Shown piece after piece: positions 5,682 through 59,600 of a DNA stretch of 64,000 bases. The notes below the pieces were generated by a model. The model searched no databases, was not told where the DNA came from, and saw nothing but the letters and a program-made list of their open reading frames with translations. Position numbers and translations under genes: made by a program. This stretch comes from Eublepharis macularius. Taxonomy: Eukaryota; Chordata; Lepidosauria; Squamata; Eublepharidae. Location: positions 18,300,001 through 18,364,000 of the forward strand of contig NC_072805.1 in assembly GCF_028583425.1 (NCBI RefSeq), given 5' to 3'. Position 1 is the stretch's first letter. Every line of letters begins with the position of its first letter.

Positions 5682-6312
5682 GAGGGTTGCCAACTCTGAC
5701 TCGGGAAATTCCTGGAGATTTGCAGGTGGTGCCATGGAAGGGCAGAATGTGGGTGGGGAGGGAGCTCGGTGAGGATGTGATATCACTCTAGGTTGTCTGT
5801 GTACCATACTGTCCGCCCTCTGAAGCAGTCATTTCCGCCAGGGTCATAGATCCAGAGGAATTAGCCGTGTTAGTCTGTAGTCACAACATAGTAAAGAGTC
5901 CAGTAGCACCTTTAAGACTAACCAACTTTATTGTAGCATAAGCTTTCGAGAACCACAGCTCTCTTCGTCAGATGCATCTGATGATGCATCTGACGAAGAG
6001 AGCTGTGGTTCTTGAAAGCTTATGCTACAATAAAATTGCATCTGATAAAGAGAGCTGTGGTTCTCGGAAGCTTATGCTACAATAAAGTTGCATCTGACGA
6101 AGAGAGCTGTGGTTCTCAGAAGCTTATGCTACAATAAAGTTGCATCTGACGAAGAGAGCTGTGGCTCTCGGAAGCTTATGCTACAATAAAGTTGGTTAGT
6201 CTTAAAGGTGCTACTGGACTCTTTACTATTTCCTCCAGGGGAGCTGATCTCTGTAGCCTGGAATTCAGTTGTAATTCCAGAAGAACTCCATGTCCTACCT
6301 GGAAGTTGGTAA
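5682..6312. mobile_element. hAT MITE family N split by a Penelope-like insertion
   Basis: Left part 5682-5843 (GGGTTGCCAACTCTGACTC...) and right part 6228-6312 (CTCCAGGGGAGCTGATCTCTG...GTTGGTAAACCT) are the two sides of one family N copy. The 384 bp between them are a separate insertion with a 13-bp duplication. Confidence 0.75.
5844..6227. mobile_element. Penelope-like insertion with four 52-bp tandem units and hammerhead-like cores
   Basis: Outer inverted arms (GTCCAGTAGCACCTTTAAGAC / CTTAAAGGTGCTACTGGACT) enclose one - strand unit (about 5935-5977) and four + strand units starting at 5986, 6038, 6090 and 6142, exactly 52 bp apart. Flanks ATTTCCGCCAGGG (5831-5843) and ATTTCCTCCAGGG (6228-6240) are a 13-bp duplication with one mismatch. 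Unit 1 (CTGACGA at 5990, GAAA at 6014) and the - strand unit (GAAA at 5944-5947, CTGACGA at 5965-5971, read in reverse) keep both hammerhead core boxes around a stem; units 2-4 have lost one box. Assignment to Penelope-like elements rests on this architecture and is inference. Confidence 0.7.
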
Positions 6313-10934: not shown

Positions 10935-11150
10935 GTCACAGATCCAGAGAAGTTAGCCATGTTAGTCTATAGTTGCAAAACAGTAAAAAGTCCAGTAGCA
11001 CCTTTAAGACTAACCAACTTTATTAAGGCATAAGCTTTCGAGAACCACAGCTCTCTTCGTCAGATGCTTCTGACAAAGAGGGCTGTGGTTCTCGAAAGCT
11101 TATGCCTCGATAAAGTTGGTTAGTCTTAAAGGTGCTACTGGACTTTTGAC
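10935..11150. mobile_element. Penelope-like head-to-head insertion
   Basis: Same family as 5844-6227: inverted arms meet near 11068. Flanks CCTTCTCCATG (10924-10934) and CCTTCTCCGTG (11151-11161), 10 of 11 identical. The - strand arm keeps CTGACGA (11057-11063) and GAAA (11036-11039); the + arm reads CTGACAA. Confidence 0.7.
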
Positions 11151-12239: not shown

Positions 12240-12445
12240 AGAGGCCGTAGCTCAGTGGCAGAGCATCTGTTTGGCATGCAGAAGGTCCTTGGTTCAATCC
12301 CCGGCATCTCCAGTTAAAAATATCAGTTAATGCGAAAGGTGTTTTTCTGAGGCTCTGGAAAGCCACTATCAGTCTGAGTGGACGATGCTGACCTTGATGG
12401 TCCAATGGTCTGATTCGACATAAGGCAGATTAATATGTCCGTGTG
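12240..12445 (+). mobile_element. tRNA-derived SINE (GCCGTAGCTCAGTGG type)
   Basis: A box TAGCTCAGTGGCAGAGC and B box GGTTCAATCC are at tRNA spacing, followed by a tRNA-unrelated body ending TGATTCGACATAAGGCAG. Not a tRNA gene: there is no 3' acceptor half. Confidence 0.85.
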
Positions 12446-14168: not shown

Positions 14169-14917
14169 TGTCATGGGGCTCAGTGATAGTGAGGACTCCT
14201 CAGGAGGAGAAGAGCCTTGTGTAGCCAGCTGGGACTCCTCAGGAGGAGAGGAGCCTTGTGTAGCCAGCCCTGACTCCTCAGGAGGAGAGGAGCCTCATGT
14301 AGCAAGGAGAGGAGCCTCATGTAGTCAGCCCTGACTCCTCAGGAGGAGAGGAGCCTCATGTAGCCAGCCCTGACTCCTCAGGAGGAGAGGAGCCTCATGT
14401 AGTGAGGAGAGGAGCCTCATGTAGCCAGCCCTGACTCAGCAGAGCACAGGGATCAGGAAGAACAGCTGCTGGCTGATCAGCCTCCACAACCAGCAGCTGA
14501 ACCAGAAGCACGGACACCTTCTAGACCCAACACCACTGGTGAAGCGCAGTCAAGGACGTCCAAACCCCCAGCTTCACCCAGAGAGCGCTGCAGACAAAGG
14601 CAACGTGTGGAGCTGTCGAGTTGCAGGAAAGACGGCAAAGCGCACGCCTCCTGGCCAGACGCCAGCTGCTTGTGGCAAGTGATGAGGAGTGACCACGGGA
14701 TAGTGCCCAAGCAGCTGGCTGCAAGCCCAGCCTCACTATAAAACACAGCCACAGAAGACCAGGCGTGGAAGCAAGCGTCAGAATCCTGCTTAGGGCTAGG
14801 ACTGCGCCATTGGACTCTGCCTTTGCACCTTGTTGATAACTGATCTTTGGACTGCCTGACCTTGCTATTTGGACTCTGGAATGGACTCTGACCATGCTAC
14901 TGAACCAGTGCATGACA
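14169..14917 (+). mobile_element. Probable solo LTR (749 bp)
   Basis: It begins TGTCATG and ends CATGACA (TG...CA with a 7-bp inverted terminus). A TATAAAA box is at 14737-14743 and a 39-bp tandem array occupies the U3-like part. Flanks ATAGA and GTAGG could be a decayed 5-bp duplication. No internal coding region is next to it. Confidence 0.55.
14194..14437 (+). repeat. 39-bp tandem repeat array
   Basis: Units begin GACTCCTCAGGAGGAGAGG and end GTAGCCAGCCCT, with two inserted partial units (GAGGAGAGGAGCCTCATGTA). The period is 13 codons, giving a DSSGGEEPCVAS-like read in one frame. Confidence 0.88.
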
Positions 14918-20949: not shown

Positions 20950-21835
20950 ATTGAAATGGTTCAAGGTTTTCTATTCCTTGGCTCAATCATCAACCAAAAG
21001 GGAGACTGCAATGAAGAAATCAGAAGAAGATTGAGATTTGGAAAAGTAGCTGTGATGGAGTAAGAGAAGATCTTTAAAGATAAAGTTGTCTCTCTGGGAA
21101 CCAAGATCAAGATAATCCAACCTATGATGTATTGTCGAAGGCTTTCACGGCCGGAGAACGATGGTTGTTGTGGGTTTTCCGGGCTGTATTGCCGTGGTCT
21201 TGGCATTGTAGTTCCTGACGTTTTGCCAGCAGCTGTGGCTGGCATCTTCAGAGGTGTAGCACCAAAAGACAGAGATCTCTGTCTTTTGGTGCTACACCTC
21301 TGAAGATGCCAGCCACAGCTGCTGGCGAAACGTCAGGAACTACAATGCCAAGACCACGGCAATACAGCCCGGAAAACCCACAACAACCACCCAACCTATG
21401 ATATTTCCCATTACTATGTATGGATGTGAAAGTTGGACAGTGAAGAAAGCCGACAGGAAGAAAATTGATTCATTTGAAATGTGGTGCTGGAGGAGAGTTT
21501 TGTGGGTACCATGGACAGCCCAAAAGACAAATAAGTGGGTACTAGATCAAATCAAGCCTGAATTCTCCCTAGAAGCTAAAATGACAAAACTGAGGCTATC
21601 GTACTCACATTGTGAGAAGACAAGATTCTCTGGACAAGTCAATAATGCTAGGAAAAGTGGAAGGCAGAAGGAAAAGAGGAAGACCTAAAATGAGATGGCT
21701 TGTTTCAATAAAAGAAGCCGCGTCCTCCAGTTTGCAGAATCCAAGCAAGTCTGTTAATGATAGAATATTTTGGAGGTCTTTCATTCATAGGTTGGAGGTG
21801 ACTTGATGGCACATCATACACACACACAATATTTT
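20950..21835 (+). mobile_element. Bov-B (RTE) LINE 3' part, split by a Penelope-like insertion
   Basis: Segments 20950-21128 (LGSIINQKGDCNEEIRRRLR) and 21391-21835 (MYGCESWTVKKADRKKID, then WRRVLWVPWTAQ) form one reading of the RTE ORF2 C terminus, with an in-frame stop at about 21060 and a frameshift near 21610. The 3' end is GACTTGATGGCACATCATAC followed by CA repeats. Confidence 0.88.
21129..21390. mobile_element. Penelope-like head-to-head insertion in Bov-B, perfect 12-bp duplication
   Basis: Two inverted copies of one ~130-bp terminal unit meet at about 21275. Identical CCAACCTATGAT lies at 21117-21128 and 21391-21402. The + arm has CTGAAGA (21300-21306), stem GCCAGC/GCTGGC (21308-21313, 21321-21326) and GAAA (21327-21330). 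The - arm has the first box but AAAA in place of GAAA. Confidence 0.75.
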
Positions 21836-21884
21836 ATCGTTGAATTGGTGACATCTGCAGGCATATGTGTACAATGGTAATGGA

Positions 21885-21970
21885 AGCATCTGACGAAGAG
21901 AACTGTGGTCCTCAAAAGCTTATGCTACAGTAAAGTTGGTTAGTCTTAAAGGTGCTCCTGGACTCGTTTC
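21885..21970 (+). mobile_element. Penelope-like single-arm fragment
   Basis: GCATCTGACGAAGAGAACTG... through GGTGCTCCTGGACTC matches one + arm of the 5844-6227 family; the second core box reads CAAA. Confidence 0.6.
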
Positions 21971-21999
21971 TATATCATTAGCAGAGGTCCTGTTTTTTG

Positions 22000-24027: not shown

Positions 24028-24370
24028 TGTATAGTGGTGAGAGTAACAGACTAGGATCTGGAAGGCTCACATTCAAAACCTAGCTCAGCCATGGAAGCTC
24101 ACTGAGTGACCTTGGGTCAGCCACACACTCTCAGCCTAGCCTACTTCATAAGTATATTGTCAAAGGTTTTCACAGCCAGAGAACGATGGTTGTTGTGGAT
24201 TTTCCGGGCTGTATAGCCAAGACCACGGCTATACAGCCCGGAAAATCCGCAACAACCTACTTCATAGGGTTTGTTGTGGGGATAAAATGGAGGGGAGGAG
24301 AATGATGATAGCTGTTTTGGGTCCCCATTGTGGAGGAAATGGAGATGTAAAGGAAGTAAATAAAATAAAG
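24028..24370 (+). mobile_element. tRNA-derived SINE split by a Penelope-like insertion
   Basis: Head GTATAGTGGTGAGAGTAACAG and body to 24150, resumed at 24267 with GGGTTTGTTGTGGGGATAAA through GGGTCCCCATTGTGGAGG to an AAGTAAATA tail. Confidence 0.82.
24151..24255. mobile_element. Short Penelope-like insertion nested in a SINE, 11-bp duplication
   Basis: 105 bp of inverted sequence (TTTTCCGGGCTGTATAGCC / GGCTATACAGCCCGGAAAA) matching the ends of the 21129-21390 element, without the hammerhead-like core. CCTACTTCATA flanks it at 24140-24150 and 24256-24266. Confidence 0.78.
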
Positions 24371-25804: not shown

Positions 25805-25965
25805 TCAAGTGAGTAACTGTGTGGGTCTGTAGCAGAAGAGCAGGAATCAGGTCCAGTAGCACCTTAAAGACCTAACTAGATTTCCAAGCTATGAACTTTC
25901 AAGAATTTTGACTCTCAAAAGCTCATATCCTGGAAATCTAGTTGGTCTTTAAAGTGATACTAATA
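25805..25965. mobile_element. Degenerate Penelope-like head-to-head fragment
   Basis: It has GTCCAGTAGCACCTTAAAGAC on the left, a degraded inverted centre, and CTAGTTGGTCTTTAAAGTG on the right. The core boxes are no longer recognisable. Confidence 0.5.
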
Positions 25966-38030: not shown

Positions 38031-38651
38031 TTAAAATAGGGGACTCAAGGCAGCCAGCAGTGTTCCTCCAGCTGCCCCTGCAACATTGGTAACCACGGAC
38101 ACCAGGGCTTTTTTTCTGGGAAAAGAGGTGGTGGAACTCAGTGGTGGAACTCAGGACTGCACAATGACATCACTTTGGGTCAGCTGGAACAAGGGGGGAG
38201 TTTTTTAAAGTTTAAATTGCTCTCGGCGAAAATGGTCACATGGCCGGTGGCCCCGCCACCTGGTCTCCAGACAGAGGGGAGTTTAGATTGCCCTCTGCAC
38301 CAGCAGCGCAGGGGGCAATCTAAACTCCTCTCTGTCGGGAGATCAAGGGGCAGGGCCATTGGCCATGTGACCATTTTTAAGAGGTGCCGGAACTCCGTTC
38401 CACCACGTTCCCGCTGAAAAAAAGCCGACTGACACTCTTGCAGCACCAACTGATTGCAATGTAGCAACGAGGCTTCCAGCAGCCGCTCCTCCACCATTAG
38501 CAATAGCAGATGCTGACATCATACTTGCAGCTGTAGATCCAGCTGTAATTCCAGCTCCAGTAAAACCCAGTACTCCAGCAACTGCTGGGAAAGCAGCTGT
38601 GGCCACAGCGCCAGCTATAACCCCAGCAGCAACAGTGACAATGTCAGCCAT
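38031..38651 (-). pseudogene. IFI27/ISG12-like single-exon locus interrupted by a hAT MITE
   Basis: Reading leftward from ATG at 38651, the product [16 protein letters not shown]... carries the ISG12 family signature [11 protein letters not shown] followed by [12 protein letters not shown] and [12 protein letters not shown]: small, Gly/Ala-rich and hydrophobic, a family of interferon-inducible, membrane- and mitochondria-associated proteins in vertebrates. After [13 protein letters not shown] the frame enters a MITE (38103-38427) and stops at 38343. On the far side (38102-38031) the sequence continues in the same frame, across the duplicated 8-bp target, with a family-like Gly/Ala/Leu C terminus ending in TAA. 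Without the insert and one target copy the frame would be about 95 codons. The absence of introns suggests a retrocopy (inference). A tRNA-like SINE head lies just upstream of the ATG on the same strand. Whether any form is expressed is unknown. Confidence 0.75.
38103..38427. mobile_element. hAT MITE family A, inserted in the IFI27-like locus
   Basis: It starts CAGGGCTTTTTTTC and ends GAAAAAAAGCC with a decayed last few bases. The 8-bp target copies are ACGGACAC (38095-38102) and ACTGACAC (38428-38435), 7 of 8 identical. The interior is a near-palindrome around CTCCTCTCTGTC-type arms shared with the other family A copies. Confidence 0.85.
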
Positions 38652-38696
38652 TCGGAGATTTTGACTTCTCTTCACCTTGTGCAGGAAACACTGGTG

Positions 38697-38792
38697 CAAG
38701 CCTTTCCAGAGTAGATTTGAACCTGGAACTCCCAAATCGTGGTCTGACACTCTACCCACTACATCAAGCTGTGCCCCCACCAACAGTCCAAA
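38697..38792 (-). mobile_element. tRNA-like SINE head upstream of the IFI27-like ATG
   Basis: - strand: AGCTTGATGTAGTGGGTAGAG A-box part and GGTTCAAATC B-box part, ending ~45 bp before the ATG at 38651. Confidence 0.7.
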
Positions 38793-39784
38793 AACCTGAG
38801 TAAGGTATAATCTCAAATCAATTGTATTTTCCTTCTTTTGAGACTGAAAATGAAGTCTTTCGGCACTTTAAGGAAGTGCTCAGATCTGAACACTGAAAAG
38901 ACTGCAAAGAGAGAGTTTTATAATGTCGGTGTGTGGAGATGACTACAAACACCCTTCTTTGAGCCCTTGCTGACTTAATCAGATGGCATATGGCATCATT
39001 TCAGCAACGCTAAGACATCAATGGGCTGTCTTTTCCACACAGGAAATATCCAGTTGTGAAAGATTGCTAAAGCACCATATTCAGCAATGTGCCAATACAG
39101 AGGGTAACCTCAGCAAAGATTGGAATGGAACACAAATGAATGAAAATAAAACTCGGGAAACAAATCCATGTTCTGTGTCAAGAAAATGCCAGTATCGCTC
39201 AAGGCAAAGCTCACATTAAATCAAATCAATCAAAGAGTACCTAAAATATGGATGCTGCCTTCATGTTCATTGGAGTTTTTGCAATGCTGGGTTGTTTGGG
39301 TTGCCAATGGGAGTGTGATAAAACAGCACATCAGCACGAGAGGTATAGTAGCACATAGCTGACCTTAACAGACAACCCATGTTTGGGTCCACACTGCCAT
39401 CTAGTGTAAACAAGGAGTACAACATTAGATATTGCACCTAATGTAGATATTGCTACATTAGATATTGTAGGTTGGAAGTCACCATTCTGGGTACAGATGA
39501 GGTAGACACTTCCTACCACTGCGAAGATTTTATATTTTTTGAATGACTCCCTGGGATAATATGGCCCCCTGAGACCCTACCAATTCCTGCTGGTCATATG
39601 ATGTGGTGGAAGAGATCAACAGCTGCACGTATCGTAATAGGCTGTGTGTAGCTTTTTCAGTTGTAATCGTGAAGATCCAACCACGAACAGGGTTACTAGG
39701 TGTCCAGATTCATCCAGACAGTATTTTGGGGGACTGTCTGGGGAGAACGTTCCCCAAATATCACACACCGGGCAGATTTCATTA

Positions 39785-44629: not shown

Positions 44630-45434
44630 ATGAAGAAAGCGGATAAGGAATGGCAGGTAGCCATAGAAACAGCTATTGAAACACTGGAAAAAAAAGTACT
44701 AGAGGGTAATAAAGAATTGGGCCAACCTATACAGAGAATGGAAGTTTGATTAAGAATATAAAGGAATCAATAAAAGCAGAAGTAACAGAGTTGTCAAAAA
44801 ATATAGAGGAGGTAAAGAAAGAGTTACAATCAACAAATCAGACAGTTCAAGAGATGGAGCAAAAAACCAACGATTTGACTTCTAGTTTGAAAGCGGAAAA
44901 TCAAATACTGCAGGAGCGTGTGGCAGTAATGGAGTGCAGGGTCTCAGAAAACCAGCTGAGATTTAGGGGGGTGCCAGAGAGTACAACGCAGAGTGCGCAA
45001 GAACAAGTGATTGAAATTTTGGCAGAATTTTTAAATAAGCAGCCAGAAGAAATAACAGTAAACTTGGATTTAGTATATAGAGTCAACTCCAGCTATGCAC
45101 AACAGAAGAATTTGCCAAGAGATATTATTGTTCAACTGATAACTAAAAGAATGAAAGAGGAAATTCTGAAAAGGCATTTTGAAAGCCCCTTGACATTGGA
45201 TGGAAACAGAGTGAGAATTATGAAAGAGCTCCCCAGGAGGATCTTGCAAGAAAGAAAGAAGTATAGATAATTAACACAAAAGTTGAGAGATAAGAGCATA
45301 AGGTATAGATGGGAATTACCAGAAGGATTGAGTTTCCATTTCCAAGCTACAAGAGTCACCATCAAATCTAAACACGAGACGGATTTGTTTTTGTTGGACA
45401 ATGAGACGGACTTTCCCAGAACAGATAGAAAATA
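44630..45434 (+). pseudogene. L1 ORF1 (RNA-binding protein) remnant
   Basis: ATG at 44630 opens a frame that is lost by a small frameshift near 44743; the next frame gives a Lys/Glu-rich coiled coil, an RRM-like stretch (ENQLRFRGVPE) and the C-terminal domain signature LPRDIIVQLITKRMKEEIL. A premature TAA at 45268-45270 interrupts it; the same frame then continues in L1-like sequence to TAA at 45432-45434. In L1 this protein trimerises and coats the element RNA. Confidence 0.85.
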
Positions 45435-45439
45435 ATACT

Positions 45440-48400
45440 ATGGAGTACAAATTAATATCTTGGAATGTTAATGGACTGAATTCACCCCAAAAACGTAAAG
45501 TTGTTTTTCACTGGCTAAAGAAGCAAAATTGCAATATAATATGCCTCCAGGAAACGCATCTAAAGGAGCAAGATTCAAAATTTTGAAAAAATGGACAATT
45601 AGAGAAAGAATTTTGGGCTTCTATAAAACAAAAGGGGAGTTGTGATATATGTAAAAGAAGAGTTGGACCCAAAGTTTTGAAGACTTTGATTTTAGGAATC
45701 TATGCACCTAATGAAGTGAAAGATGAGTTTTATAAGGAGTTAATTCAAAACTTGGACCAATATTCATATGATCAAATGATAATGGCTGGAGACTTTAATG
45801 GAGTTGTGGACTTGCATTTGTACAGGAAAGTAAACTTGGCCAAACAAAAATCGGGGAAGCTACCAAAATCTTTTCTTGAATTGACAGGCCAAGAAAAGGT
45901 GGAAGACATATGGAGAAATTGGAATCCTAAAAGTAAAGAATATACATTTTACTCTGCAAGACACCAATCTTTTTCGAGAATTGATATGATTTGGACAACT
46001 AAAGAGTTAAATTTGCTACCAAGAAAATAGAGATGATGCCAAGAGTGAGTTCAGACCATAATCCAATTTTGTGGAAAGCTTCGATGGGGCAAAGAAAATT
46101 AAGATGGAGATTAAACGAAGATCTTCTTCAAAACTAAGCAAATGTGGAATTTATTCAAGGGGAATCGAAATGCTTTTTCCAATATAATATGGATCAGGAA
46201 GTCCCAATGCATACAGTTTGGGACGCTTATAAAGCAGTGATGAGAGGGATACTGATTACATTGAACAACAGGGAAAGAAGAAAAAGAGAGGAAAAATTTC
46301 AAGAGAAAATCTCTAAGAAAGAACAAGAATTAAGGAAAAAAACAGGGAAGAAAACAATAATCCAAGAAATTAAGATACTGCAGGAGCAGCTAGGGGCCTA
46401 TGCAAATAAAGAACTGGAATGGAAATTGAGGATGTTACAGCAAAAATCGTTTGAAGGGGCAAATAAGCCAGGGAGATATTTAGCCTGGCAATTGAAAAGG
46501 AAGAGAGAGAGAAAAGCAATCGGTAAAATAATAGAGGAAGGGAAAGAGTTAATGGAACACCATTCTATAAAGAGAGCATTTTATAAGTATTACGCCAAGT
46601 TATTCCAAAGAAGGGCAATAGATCCAGGAAAAATAGATAGTTATCTACAAAAAGCAAATCTACCTAAGATTTCAAGCAAGATGAAAGAGAAATTAAATGC
46701 TCAAGTTACGGAAGAAGAAATTTTAGATGCCATAGAATCAACGAAGGTGGGGTAAGCACCGGGCCCAGATGGAATATCAGCAAAATTTTATAAAATAATG
46801 AAAAAGGACCTAGTGCTGGCCCTACAAAGGGTGATGAATGAGACTATGAAAGGAAAAGGTTTACCAGATACATGGAATGAAGCAAATATCTTATTGATTC
46901 CAAAGGAGTTACAAGATTTATCAGATATAAAGAACTACAGGCCAATATCTTTATTAAATAATGACTATAAAATCTTTGCAAGAATCTTAGGAGAAAGACT
47001 TAAAAAATTGTTAATGGACTGTGGGGGAGAAGAGCAAGCTGGGTTTTTACCCAATAGACAAATTAGAGACAATTTGAGAGTAGTGATGGATGCCATAGAA
47101 TATTATGACAAGCACCCTGACAGAGATAGGCTTTTTCCCCCGCAGATGCAGAGAAAGCCTTTGACAACTTAAATTGGGACTTTATGTTTGCAACAATGGA
47201 AAGGATAGACCTAGGGAAAGACTTTATAGAGGCAGTGAAAGCTGTTTGCAAAGATCGAAGAGCGGCGATATGCATTAACAGTGACTTGACAGAAAAATTC
47301 AAGGTAAGAAAAGGTACAAGGCAAGGATGTCCACTTTCACCTCTGCTGTTCGTTATGGTGCTGGAAGTATTATTAAGGCAGATAAGAGAAGATGACAACA
47401 TCAAAGGGATAAGGCTCAAAGGCAATTCGTGTAAGTTTAGAGCGTTTGCGGACGATGTAATGTTTATAGTAGAAGATCCAATCCAGACATTACCGATTTT
47501 GTTAGGCAAAATTAAAGAATTTGGAGATCTGGCAGGGTTCTACATTAACAAAATAAAGTCGAAACTGCTCTGTAAAAATATGACAAAAAGGAAACAGCAG
47601 GAGCTAGTAAGTGTAACAAACTGTGAAGTGGTTCAAAAAACAAAATACCTGGGAATAGAACTGACAGTTAAAAATATAGACTTGTTTAAGAATAACTATG
47701 AAAAGCATTTCAACTATGTTGAAATGGAACAAATTGAACTTGTCATTGTTGGGCCGTATTTCAGTGGTTAAAATGAATGTGCTACCTAGAATGATGTTCT
47801 TGTTGCAAACAATCCCAATAGTAAAAGATAAAAAACATTTTGACAAATGGCAGAGAAAAATATCAGAATTTGTGTGGGCAGGGAAGAAGCCGAGGGTTAA
47901 GATGAAGGTGTTATGCGATGCAAAGGAAGGGGGTGGTTTGCAATTACCGAACTTGAGATTGTGCCATGAGGCAATATGTTTAACATGGTTGAGAGAATGG
48001 GTGAAATTATCTAATCATTAGTTGTTGTCTTTGGAAGGTCACAACAAGTTGTTTGGCTGGCATGCATATCTTTGGTATGATAAGCATAAAATGGATGCCA
48101 TGTTTCAACACCATTATGAAAGAAGAAATCTTTTCTGGTTTGGCAAAAATATAAAACGTTTTTTGGGGGGGAAGAGAGACCTTTGTGGATTGTACCACAG
48201 AAGTTGTAAACCCGAGTATGGAATACAAAGGAGAAGAATGGATAACCTATAAAGAACTATTAAGGTTGGACAGAGACCCTCTTAAGATTAAGGACAATGA
48301 GGAACTACCATTTAAATATGGATGGTTGCAATATCGACAAATTAAAGATTTATTTGAAGCAGACAAAAGAAAACTAGGTTTTAGAGGTAAAAACTCAGAA

Positions 48401-49111
48401 TCAGAAGAACTTTTACTGTGAGAGGGAGCAAAAGTGATTTCTAAGATATATAAACTTTTGTTGAAATGGTACACAGAGGATGAGATGGTTAAAGTTCAAA
48501 TGGTGAAATGGGCAATAAATTTTAATAAAGAGATTACAATGGAGGCATGGGAATATTTATGGAAAAATACATTGAAAATATCAACATGTACCAGTTTAAA
48601 AGAGAATGGATATAAGATGATGCATAGGTGGTACTTAACACTGAAAAAGTTGGCAAATGTTAATAGTCAAATGTCAAACAAATGTTGGAAATGTAAAAAA
48701 CATGAAGGTTCTCTGTACCATATGTGGTGGACGTGTGAAAAGGCCAAGCTATTTTGGTCTAAGATCTTTGCGGAAATGTCGCTAATTCTGAAAAGTAATG
48801 TGATAAAGAGCCCTGAATTGCAACTACTAGGATTAAATATGGAGAAAGTGAATGTTAAGGACAGGACACTGTTATATTATATGACGGTAGCAGCAAGAAT
48901 ATTATATGCACAGTATTGGAAACAAGAAGAACTACCAGAAGTCGAAGACTGGATACAAAAACTGTTGTACATGGCAGAAATGGACAAATTGGCAAGAAAG
49001 TTAAGAGAACAAAATCCAAGTGAATTTTTTACAGACTGGGGGAAACTTAAAAATTATTTGGAAAGGAAATGGGATGTGAAAGGACAATTGTGGTCTCTTG
49101 ACAATTATTAA
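45440..49111 (+). pseudogene. L1 ORF2 (endonuclease-reverse transcriptase) remnant
   Basis: The start reads MEYKLISWNVNGLNSPQKRK, the AP-endonuclease N terminus, with CLQETH, GDFNG and SDHNP endonuclease motifs following. Reverse transcriptase landmarks are APGPDGI, a NYRPISLL segment, an EEQAGFLPNRQ segment and FADD at 47445-47456. A Cys-His motif (CWKC...HMWWTC) lies near 48700, and the stop is at 49109-49111. Stops at about 45584 and 46753, another after 47170 and several frameshifts break the frame. Retrotransposition activity is excluded for this copy. Confidence 0.9.
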
Positions 49112-49439: not shown

Positions 49440-49800
49440 AAAGTTTCAGTCAGAAGAAAGCAGGCTGGCTGTGTGCTGCCTGAGTATGTTGAAGTATTTA
49501 TGAGAGAAATATAACCTGTGTGGAATCTGAACTGAGCATGTTTGTGAAAGGACACTCAGTCAGGGAAAGAGAGGCCAGCTGTGTGCTGTCTGAGGAGTTT
49601 TAAGCATTTCTGTGAGAGAAATATTGAGTCAAGAGAAAGCAGGCAAGCTGTTTGCAGCCTGAGCAGTTTTAAGCGTTTCTGTGAAATATTGAATCAGAAG
49701 AAAGCGGGCAAGCTGTGCGCTGCCTGAGTAACTTTAAGCATGTCTGTGAGAAATATTGAGTTAGAGAAAGAGGCTAGCTGTGTGAAGCCTTAGAAGAGAT
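49440..49800 (+). repeat. Degenerate ~65-75-bp tandem repeat upstream of the SDR gene
   Basis: Five diverged units with AGAAAGCAGGC-AGCTGTGTGCTGCCTGAG and TTTCTGTGAGAGAAATATTGAG elements. Before the MITE and L1 inserted, it adjoined 43400-43500. Confidence 0.65.
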
Positions 49801-56600: not shown

Positions 56601-59600
56601 GGTATAATGGCTAGAGTCTCAGACTAGGAACTGAGAGACCCAGGTACGAATCTTCACTCTGCCATGGAAATTCACTGGGTAACTTTGGTCCAGCCATGCA
56701 CGCTCAGCCTAAGCTACCTCACAGAGTTCCAGTGAGGATAAAATAGAGAAAAGGAGAAAGACGTAAGCTGCTTCGGATCCTCACCGGGGAGAAAGGCAGG
56801 ATGTTAATTAATAAACTAATATTCCAAGTGACAGTTTTCCAGGGTCCTGCCCAACTCTGCTAAGATACAAAGCTGGGAAAGGGCAGGAGCTTTCGGGGTC
56901 AGTCACCGCTCTTTCAGAGCTCTCTCAGCCCCACCCACCTCACAAGGTGTTTTGTTGTGGGGATAATAATGACATACTTTGTAAACCACTCTGAGTGGAT
57001 GTTAAGTCATCCTGAAGGGCATATATAAATCAAATATTATTATTATTATTATATGCAAACATGGGTTTTATCTAGGGTTGCCAGCTGCCAGCTGGAGATC
57101 TCCTGGAATTACAACTGATCTCCAGGCCACAGAGATCAGTTCCCCTGGAGAAAATGGCTGCTTTAGAGGGTGGATTCTATGGAATTATATCACGCTGAGG
57201 TCCTTTCCCTCTCCAATCCCTGCCTTCTCCAGGTTTCACCTCCCAAATCTCCAGGAATTTCCCAGCTTGGAGCTGGCAACCCTAGTTTTATCACTAAGCC
57301 CCTAAAACAAGCCATGTTTGCTTTAAAAGTAAAACATCCAAAAATGTGATTTATATGTTGAATGAGTCCCACTGAGTTCAACAAGCATTGTTTCCTGGTA
57401 AGCTTGCAGAGGAGAGCAGTTTTCCGCTATATGCCGGAGATTTCTGACAAGAGTTTAAAGCATTTCTTTAAATATACATCTGGAAGCTGTTTCTGCCCCA
57501 GCCTGGAAGCTGTGGTCAAGGGACTGAAGGAGTAAGTATGCTGGGAACTTTGCAGCAAACACGCTCACCAGGCAACCAGAGCTTGTTTGAACTCCCTTGA
57601 TTACCAGCAAGGTGAGCTCCTGGTAGGATTACTTCAACACTTCCTGATCGCTTCAATGCTTCACATTAGTAAAATTCAGGCCTGCTGCCAGTTGGCAGCG
57701 GACTTAAAAAAAACTTCACAGTATGACTGCAGAGGGAAAAAATCGGGGATACAGCGGCCAGGAGCGGGTCCGCGTCCCACGTCTGCCTTGAAAGTGGGAA
57801 AACCTTGCAAACATTGGACACGGAACAGGTACAAACACATTCTAAAAACCGAGTGCAAAAAGTACCAGCGTTTGTCTCGAGCACCATATTGTGCTGAGCA
57901 GTTTTGCACCTACAGAGCAGCCCCTTGGCCGTTGCAGCTTGTGGCTCTGTTAACCCCCATCATCATGTTTGTTTGAGAAGAGACACCCCCTGAGGTCATG
58001 GCCACTCAAGTAATTAAACTGACTTACATATAATATATAGAACTGCTTGCTCTTTGCGCTTGCGCAATCAAATGCATTCTTCAAATGATCAGCATTGGAT
58101 AGATCAAGATGAGTAGCTGTGTTAGTCTGTCTGTAGCAGTAGAAAAGAGCAAGAGTCCAGTAGCACCTGTAAGACTAATAAAATTTGTCGTAGGGTATGA
58201 GCTTTCGTGAGTCACAACTCACTTCTTCAGATACCTTTATCTGAAGTGAGCTGTGACTCACGAAAGCTCATACCCTGCCACAAACGTTGGTAGTCTTACA
58301 GGTGCTACTGGACTCTTGCTCTTTTCTACTGCATCATTGGATAGAATACATTGGTAGCTTTTTCTGCTGCACAACTAGGCAGTAGCTCCTAGTTAGAAAG
58401 TAATTGCAAAAGTAGCCGGGTTCACTGACAGATACTGAGACACTAATTAGTCAGACTCAACTCAAAAACCCAAAAGTGCTTTTTTTAAAAAAAATGGATT
58501 GTGTGCTCTTTTAAAAATTGGAGGCAGCAGCAGATGAGTGTGTGGCAGCAGAGAGAGAGTCCCGTCATGTAAGAAAGCAGTGTAATCGTGCAGACGCATC
58601 CAAATTCATTTGGCTGCGTCTGAACAACTCGCAGAATAGGAGCTGAACTGACAAATATTCAAACATGCCTAAAGAGAACAAGTAACATTCTGGAAGTAAG
58701 TGTGCTAACTCCTTTGGACGGAGCAAGCCTTTCTCTCTCTTTGATTTGGTTAAGAGCTCCGAGATGCTTCTTGATCCAGTTAGAGATGCAGCTTAGTTCA
58801 GTTACATCAGGGCCAAAAATGGAAACTGACCTCTGCTCCAGAATCAATTGATCAAGCTTTGCTGATTCCCACTAGTGTAACCTCCAGAGTCGACTACTGA
58901 ACAGTGCAGGGCTGCCCTTAAAGGTAGCCCAGAAACCGCAAGTGGTGCAAAATGTACCATCTCGAATGTCTAACTGGTGCTGATTAACACCTACCCTGGA
59001 ATATATTTCCTAGCTCCCTATTACTTTTTTCCAAGGTGCTGGTTCTTACTTTTGAAGTCTTTTCCCGCCTGGAGCCCATAAACAATCTATTCCTTTATCA
59101 AGCTGTGTGGCCTCTTTTTTTTACTTTATTCGTACAGCACCTTTCTCCGCAGTGGGGACTCAAAGCAGCTTATATCATTTTCCTCTCCTCCGTTTGTTCC
59201 TCACAACAAACCCTGCGAGGTAGGTTTGGCTGAGAGTTTATAACTGGCCAGAGGTCACCCAGAGAGCTTCTGGGGCAGAGCAGGGACTTGAACCTCAATC
59301 ACCCAGATCCTAATCTGTTACTCTAGCCACTGCACAACACTGCTCTCTGCTTTTCAGTGTGATGTAGTGGTTACAATGCTAGACTAGGGAGACTCGAGTT
59401 CAATTCCCCACTCTGCCACATCTGTTTTCTGCATAACCTTGGGCCAGTCATTCACTCCCTCAGCCCAGCCTACCTCACAGGGTGGTTGTTGTGAAGACAA
59501 AATGTGAAAGCTGCCTTAAGCTGCTTTGGGGAGAAAAGTAGGGTATACATATCTAAATAAATAAATGTAGCAGTTCCTGCTAACAGTGCCAGCATACAGG

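Follow-up and report, generated by a model that had tools for sequence, protein, structure and literature searches.

The locus considered here raises two questions: what is the compact run of 52-bp hammerhead-ribozyme-like units at positions 5844-6227 of a 64,000-nucleotide stretch of Eublepharis macularius DNA (the window, on contig C16 of a 2.24-Gb genome in 72 contigs), and how did it come to be there? This stretch, insertion A, is a head-to-head non-autonomous Penelope-like (PLE) insertion carrying a minimal PLE hammerhead, 384 bp in size and flanked by a 13-bp target duplication, and its parts are as follows:

5831-5843, no strand: left copy of the target site duplication, 13 bp, 12/13 against 6228-6240
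5844-5887, minus strand: PLE tail (..TATGTTGTGACTACAGACTAACACGGCTAATTCCTCTGGATCTATGA), at the left end only, with 53 nt beyond the GGACT landmark, compared with 7 nt at the right end
5888-5979, minus strand: tail-bearing arm with one hammerhead unit and an intact core; 97% inverted repeat of 6138-6229, full motif match
5979-5982, no strand: centre where the two arms meet, with GATGCATC palindromes on its flanks; inverted-repeat arms 5923-5978 and 5983-6038, 4 nt between them
5985-6036, plus strand: unit 1, intact core; CTGACGA at 5990, GAAA at 6014-6017, expected cut between 6021 and 6022
6037-6088, plus strand: unit 2, core changed by G8A and A13G; type III three-way junction fold with the unit 1 cut site
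6089-6140, plus strand: unit 3, core changed by G12A and A13G (sequence and fold)
6141-6192, plus strand: unit 4, core changed by A13G (sequence and fold)
6193-6227, plus strand: short end of the second arm (..GGTTAGTCTTAAAGGTGCTACTGGACTCTTTACT), 7 nt after GGACT
6228-6240, no strand: right copy of the target site duplication, 12/13 against the left copy

TRF gives the array a period of 52 bp with 4.0 copies (5985-6194, 93% matches), and the self-match within it is 148/158 at a lag of 52, while lags of 50, 51, 53 and 54 reach only 31-43 of 156-160. The inverted arm is complementary at 89/92 positions to the last unit and its 3' flank (6138-6229), and the duplication reads ATTTCC[G/T]CCAGGG. 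The left end of the insertion is 46 nt longer than the right, and this tail is likened, by position and not by sequence comparison, to the one lying between two reverse transcriptase (RT) start sites in the relevant passages of PMC11167929. These observations bear out the preliminary description as to the exact spacing of the four tandem units, the inverted unit ahead of them and the duplication; its further statement that the array arrived as one insertion is supported by the duplication as far as the insert is concerned, while an array already whole at arrival is possible, block duplications at other loci and a derived change in units 2-4 having to be set beside it. That an opposing unit should be unusual did not hold, since head-to-head is the usual PLE arrangement in the parts of PMC3846280 that describe it.

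Insertion A is accompanied in the window by related insertions:

10935-11150, minus strand: insertion B, same family, head-to-head, single units, one tail, 11-bp duplication (10/11), sense core intact
21129-21390, minus strand: insertion D, a distinct PLE-like family, one longer end, 12-bp duplication, arms 112/113 identical
21883-21973, plus strand: E, a single-arm copy of family A with a G12A core, no clear duplication
24151-24255, no strand: G, a short head-to-head copy of the D family without ribozyme, 11-bp duplication
25805-25961, minus strand: F, a decayed head-to-head copy that has lost the ribozyme, no clear duplication
58104-58334, minus strand: insertion C, related family, head-to-head, one tail, 11-bp duplication

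The marks of a PLE insertion, namely head-to-head pLTR pieces, a tail at one end and a short target duplication, are present in insertions A-D.

Taken by itself, CTGANGA...GAAA occurs in the 64-kb window at about the frequency expected by chance (9 found, 6.0 expected, with 14/100 shuffles reaching 9). A full motif, defined as the core, a stem II of at least 4 bp, a self-complementary tetranucleotide stem III, H at the cut and a stem I of at least 3 bp, occurs five times in the window and in none of 200 dinucleotide shuffles. The five are unit 1, the inverted unit and one unit in each of the independent insertions B (11063, minus), C (58230, minus) and D (21300, plus); all five have the CUGANGA...GAA core with stem II, which units 2-4 lack, and in insertions B, C and D the core on the opposite arm is decayed. 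Stem II is GAGAGC/GUUCUC in A and B, GUGAGU/ACUCAC in C and GCCAGC/GCUGGC in D, and stem I is AUGC/GCAU, AUACC/GGUAU and AGG/CCU, respectively, so that both stems differ on both sides between A/B, C and D, that is, they covary; pairing was compared by hand, a MAFFT alignment having misplaced stem II of D. Stem III is AGCU or, as in D, ACGU, each self-complementary. Stems I and III surround the cut site, which in A and B is an NUH site between CUU and AUGC; in D it falls between GUC and AGG on the plus-strand arm (CGTCAGG type). The array, C and D units carry one extra nucleotide between A9 and stem II.

Together with the duplication and the head-to-head, one-tail arms, the stems, the NUH site and the two-sided changes support the hammerhead identity and Penelope origin proposed in the preliminary description, and the family consensus contains CTGANGA and GAAA. 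Covariance searching, the check envisaged there, did not recover them: with Rfam models, neither the array nor insertions C and D yielded a hammerhead at E<=10, and insertion B was covered only by the whole-window scan at gathering score, which likewise returned none. This failure says little, since the intact cores of insertions C and D went unmatched as well. What Rfam did return at E<=10 was 16 sub-threshold matches, mostly microRNA models fitted to the long hairpin that the whole insert forms when folded as one RNA (-212.7 kcal/mol, z -22), the rest including plastid 3'UTR, Anti-Q and snoRNA models. A chance likeness, or a hairpin of another kind such as a microRNA-like precursor, would account for such matches; however, none of them reaches the gathering score, the full motif is missing from all 200 shuffles and the stems change on both sides across families, and we regard this explanation as extremely improbable. 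The title of Lunse et al. 2017 names a dimer mode of PLE hammerheads. The self-complementary stem III fits that mode, as well as the PLE hammerheads without helix III mentioned in passages of PMC6155905 and PMC7761336.

Within the window array the ribozyme core is intact in only some of the units. Unit 1 and the inverted unit (core CTGACGA at 5971-5965, GAAA at 5947-5944, expected cut between 5940 and 5939) keep both boxes, the 6-bp stem and the TGTG loop, as had been described. The invariant core had been attributed to each unit; it is intact in one of the four tandem units and in two of the five overall, the boxes of the others reading CTGATAA...GGAA (unit 2), CTGACGA...AGAA (unit 3) and CTGACGA...GGAA (unit 4). 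Units 2-4 all carry A13G, which neither unit 1 nor the inverted unit shows, and insertions B and E lack it too. All three tandem junctions (6018-6074, 6070-6126 and 6122-6178) have as their minimum free energy structure a type III three-way junction, with stem III drawn from adjacent units, a stem I hairpin and a stem II hairpin, although their stability is not unusual (z-scores -0.09 to -0.86). Core changes such as these abolish cleavage of hammerheads. Because the cores of units 2-4 are all altered and no sense cut site precedes unit 1 in cis, the window array contains no complete junction. It looks like a decayed member of the family and appears, judging by its sequence, to be inactive; cleavage was abolished by other changes, at G8 and C3, in the experiments reported in part of PMC11167929.

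The array is not a lone curiosity, a reading that we dropped when the junction between units, AATAAAGTTGCATCTGANGAAGAG, was searched in the whole genome and gave 1,678 exact matches (1066+612) against 0 for the reversed control; for the same reason, the suggestion that so compact an array is unusual did not stand. The pattern TTGCATCTGANGA...CTCGAAAG with an intact core, which does not require a tandem arrangement, matched 528+446 times (control 0), and a complete consensus unit flanked by two junctions was found 140 times (76+64, control 0). A set of 59 arrays, consisting of the window array and 58 grouped by hand on C1-C4 from the first 100 of the 1,678 places, and therefore a non-random sample, holds 326 units; 178 of these lie exactly 52 bp from the preceding unit, and 68 of the 178 have an intact core. 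At least one complete tandem hammerhead junction is present in 28/59 arrays, among which the window array is not included. Core losses are mainly G12A (63) and G8A (32) and, as both sit in CpGs of the unit, most are explicable by ordinary decay. Six more arrays were chosen for their many perfect units (among them L093, with 20/20 units intact, and L092, with 9/10), which brings the loci to 65, L090 and L091 being left out of all counts; in these 65 loci there are 68 runs with 313 units, 124/245 downstream units are intact, and runs reach up to 28 units at the exact 52-bp period. A spacing of 90 bp, read as higher-order units of 52+38 bp, occurs at two separate loci (L033 and C2 7142418/7142508), and the 38-bp junction looks like a joining at ATGC beside the cleavage site. 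A match from a pattern scan of IMG/VR (L001) was set aside as chance, being a GC-rich stretch in which no hammerhead stem II could be seen by eye. Among the papers listed by literature searches, none dealt with 52-bp hammerhead arrays, which is not proof of their absence.

Tandem repeats with complete hammerheads, a hallmark of retrozymes, are thus found across the genome (28/59 arrays) and not in the window array, and the unit, at 52 bp, lies outside the approximately 150-450 bp of retrozyme units. One explanation of the arrays would take them for retrozymes all the same: tandem transcripts would self-cleave to 52-nt monomers, a host ligase would circularise these and the PLE RT would copy them round and round, so that complete 52-nt type III hammerheads would constitute an extremely small retrozyme near vertebrate chromosome ends. 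The 140 exact complete units between two junctions, the intact units of L093 and L092 (both selected for perfect units) and the three-way junction fold of the tandem junctions would be in keeping with it, as would the metazoan retrozymes of approximately 170-400 nt expressed as linear and circular RNAs in the account given in part of PMC7229834. However, the retrozymes of that account are far larger than 52 nt, arrays of core-changed units also occur, and in the window A13G is carried by units 2-4 including the one adjacent to the body, which is not the pattern to be expected had a circle supplied internal units only. We consider this explanation unlikely.

Of the 65 loci, 38 were called two-armed and 27 had one recognised arm (11 tailed, 16 untailed); the calls are automatic and made per locus, L032 having a second copy nearby and L034 and L074 perhaps joining neighbouring insertions. 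Exactly one tail is present in 34/38 two-armed loci, two tails in two and none in two, and at least 34/38 would be expected with p = 3e-7 were the ends independent. A duplication (score of at least 8) was called in 28/37 two-armed loci tested, compared with 4/300 random flank pairs, and 25 of the 28 are clean, the word being partly element sequence in L041 and L089 and an A run in L032. The unit counts of the two strands are unequal in 29 of the 34 one-tail loci; in 26/29 one strand has exactly one unit. The side with more units is the tailed one in 13 loci and the short one in 16.

The second arm could in principle be copied from the first by self-primed fold-back, as has been suggested for antisense-template self-priming in A. 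vaga, and the GATGCATC palindromes at the centre, like the palindromes at inverted junctions in A. vaga described in part of PMC3846280, speak for such a step. A copied arm would not be expected to differ from its template at the outer end, yet the outer ends differ in tail at 34/38 two-armed loci, and we hold fold-back to be very unlikely. The one-tail pattern suggests that the two strands may use different start sites, maybe with both RTs on one RNA, unlike PAc (Poseidon_Ac, an Anolis PLE), for which the in vitro data in the consulted part of PMC11167929 give no start-site difference between strands.

We favour, as the probable though by no means certain origin of these loci, a PLE insertion from paired start sites in which the arms are joined at the RNA 5' end and arrays come from renewed RT engagement or from array-bearing RNA, followed by decay and growth. 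The PLE endonuclease/reverse transcriptase would act on both target strands. The element RNA would offer two start sites side by side; the cDNA begun at the outer one would acquire the tail, and the cDNA begun at the inner one would form the short end. Both cDNAs would reach the RNA 5' end, which would lie immediately before the hammerhead core (approximately GAUGCAUC-CUGANGA). Joined there, they would form a head-to-head insert whose target duplication measures roughly 8-15 bp; from breakpoints only, we infer that the GATGCATC meeting point of the arms corresponds to this RNA end. At some insertions one cDNA would carry the 5'-most 52 nt several times, either because the RT re-engaged at ...AAAGUU(G) or because it copied an RNA already holding an array, the two sources to which the shared junction and the partner arm with its single unit point. 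Arrays would then decay, chiefly at the two core CpGs, and some would grow by block duplication. In a tandem, the cut site and the core of the next unit would lie in one RNA, so that stem III AGCU/AGCU could form in cis and each tandem junction would be a potential unimolecular type III hammerhead; a single unit, having no closable stem III, would need to act as a dimer.

Growth at the DNA level is visible at several loci and brings in the main alternative to insertion from paired start sites, namely that a 52-bp duplication, inherited or made once, was expanded as a minisatellite by slippage or unequal crossing over near chromosome ends, with no involvement of the ribozyme. In L044 a four-unit block is repeated (1.5 mismatches at lag 4 against 4.9-5.0 at lags 1-3) and in L084 a two-unit block (1.7 at lag 2 against 3.5), and L067 has six G12A units; these blocks and units show growth without intact cores, and the A13G common to window units 2-4 is of the same kind. 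Only two units make up 32/68 runs. In the 25 testable runs, each of at least 4 units and with some non-CpG change, pairwise change divided by the summed changes from the consensus has a median of 0.81 and is below 0.75 in 8/25, among them the window array (0.5). Derived changes are thus often common to several units, and star-like variation, as in young arrays, is a weak sign. On the other side, the shared junction, with its microhomology of approximately 2 nt, needs one inherited event or a fixed acceptor, and growth alone leaves the seed unexplained. Some arrays of 10-20 units are almost without non-CpG change relative to the family consensus (one change each in L092, L094 and L095, none in L097); however, L092-L097 were selected for perfection and so cannot decide the mode of formation.

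Chromosomal position bears on the same alternative. Exact tail-pattern copies, 100 of which were listed out of 106, lie near chromosome ends (77 places on C1-C12, median relative distance 0.106 against 0.25, p = 7e-15), and perfect tandem loci, merged by hand from the 100 places listed out of 140, lie nearer still (54 on C1-C12, median 0.04, p = 5e-24), these and the following p values being optimistic given the dependence among clustered loci. On C1-C12 tandem loci lie closer to the ends than tail copies do (p = 0.0015), while an earlier comparison on the smaller set of C1-C7, C11 and C12 gave p = 0.33; for all tandem loci on C1-C3 the median is 0.019 (p = 0.056). GIY-YIG matches lie further inward (median 0.315, 63 of 78, nine contigs). 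The terminal bias of tandem loci favours local growth and, with the recount of star-likeness, this retest led us to lower the weight given to insertion from paired start sites and to raise that of minisatellite growth, which we now regard tentatively as a serious possibility.

An autonomous partner was sought through the GIY-YIG domain, which matched 78 times among 150 scored of 3593 candidates. There was no family-A match in 20 GIY-YIG loci with 1.5-kb flanks, nor in the upstream stretches of three, and for the remaining loci a 5' pLTR could lie beyond the stretch examined. L015, considered as a link between the ribozyme and a PLE ORF, was dropped because the nearby insertion is a D-type head-to-head one. 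At L003, L005 and L098 (C6 43.23 Mb) two GIY-YIG matches on opposite strands lie approximately 3.3 kb apart, possibly a head-to-head PLE of another type, and motif scans of these loci gave no hammerhead.

Elsewhere in the window, L1-like LINE remnants at 44713-49111 (plus; Transposase_22 E 1.8e-5, RVT_1 E 9e-22) coincide with a region of pronounced purine skew (44-50 kb), where a 65-bp tandem repeat also occupies 49572-49784, and an open frame at 38346-38867 (minus) has an interferon-induced 6-16 (IFI6/IFI27-like) domain (PF06140, E 9e-20). A 54-bp tandem repeat of 4.8 copies (852-1109) is in frame inside the open frame 769-1320, which has no Pfam match; a complex tandem array with periods of 39, 22, 61 and 100 bp occupies 14193-14437; and a tRNA-like sequence at 12241-12309 (plus) is above the Rfam gathering score, with 41.9 bits.

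PLE hammerheads are widespread and their role is called unknown in the reviews consulted. The 1,678 exact junctions, many of them complete, offer a way to test whether a ribozyme that works only as a dimer can act as a single molecule once its units stand in tandem, and the one-tail pattern predicts that PLE integration uses different start sites on the two strands.

An experimental counterpart is PAc which, in the portions of PMC11167929 available, acts on both strands by cleavage and extension, with a pair of neighbouring internal start sites that match its tail. Its hammerhead is protein-assisted and lies at the start of the ORF region, with the start codon at stem II and the cut 26 bp past it; hammerhead mutants left insertion in vitro unchanged, and no read had its start or end at the cleavage site. 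Counted from A9, the cut in our units falls 26 nt away, as far as it lies from the start codon in PAc, whereas our inserts have no ORF and show one-tail pairing, and PAc is presented in those portions as pLTR-ORF tandems and not as 52-bp arrays. Copies of Penelope in A. vaga, as depicted in part of PMC3846280, have head-to-head pLTRs with a tail on one of them; that part describes no tandem 52-bp units and mentions hammerheads 0 times, while the head-to-head pLTRs, the junction palindrome, the single tail and the target site duplications of 8-10 bp in its examples resemble what we see. Metazoan non-LTR retrozymes (PMC7229834, in part) and the satellite hammerheads of newt and axolotl are likewise tandem, the vertebrate ones working better as dimers. 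Their units, as far as those accounts go, are of approximately 150-450 bp, whereas the units here are of 52 bp and lie in PLE head-to-head inserts with tails. Minimal type I hammerheads of Penelope-like elements, reportedly the subject of Cervera & de la Pena 2014 and of Lunse, Weinberg & Breaker 2017, have the same core and stem II, no closable helix III and a stem III suited to dimers. Similar minimal hammerheads occur in tandem in PLEs according to a passage of a review (PMC7761336). Compared with these, as they appear from titles and review statements, the arrays described here, which are found at many loci, keep an exact 52-bp period over as many as 28 units, in what would be a unimolecular type III arrangement.
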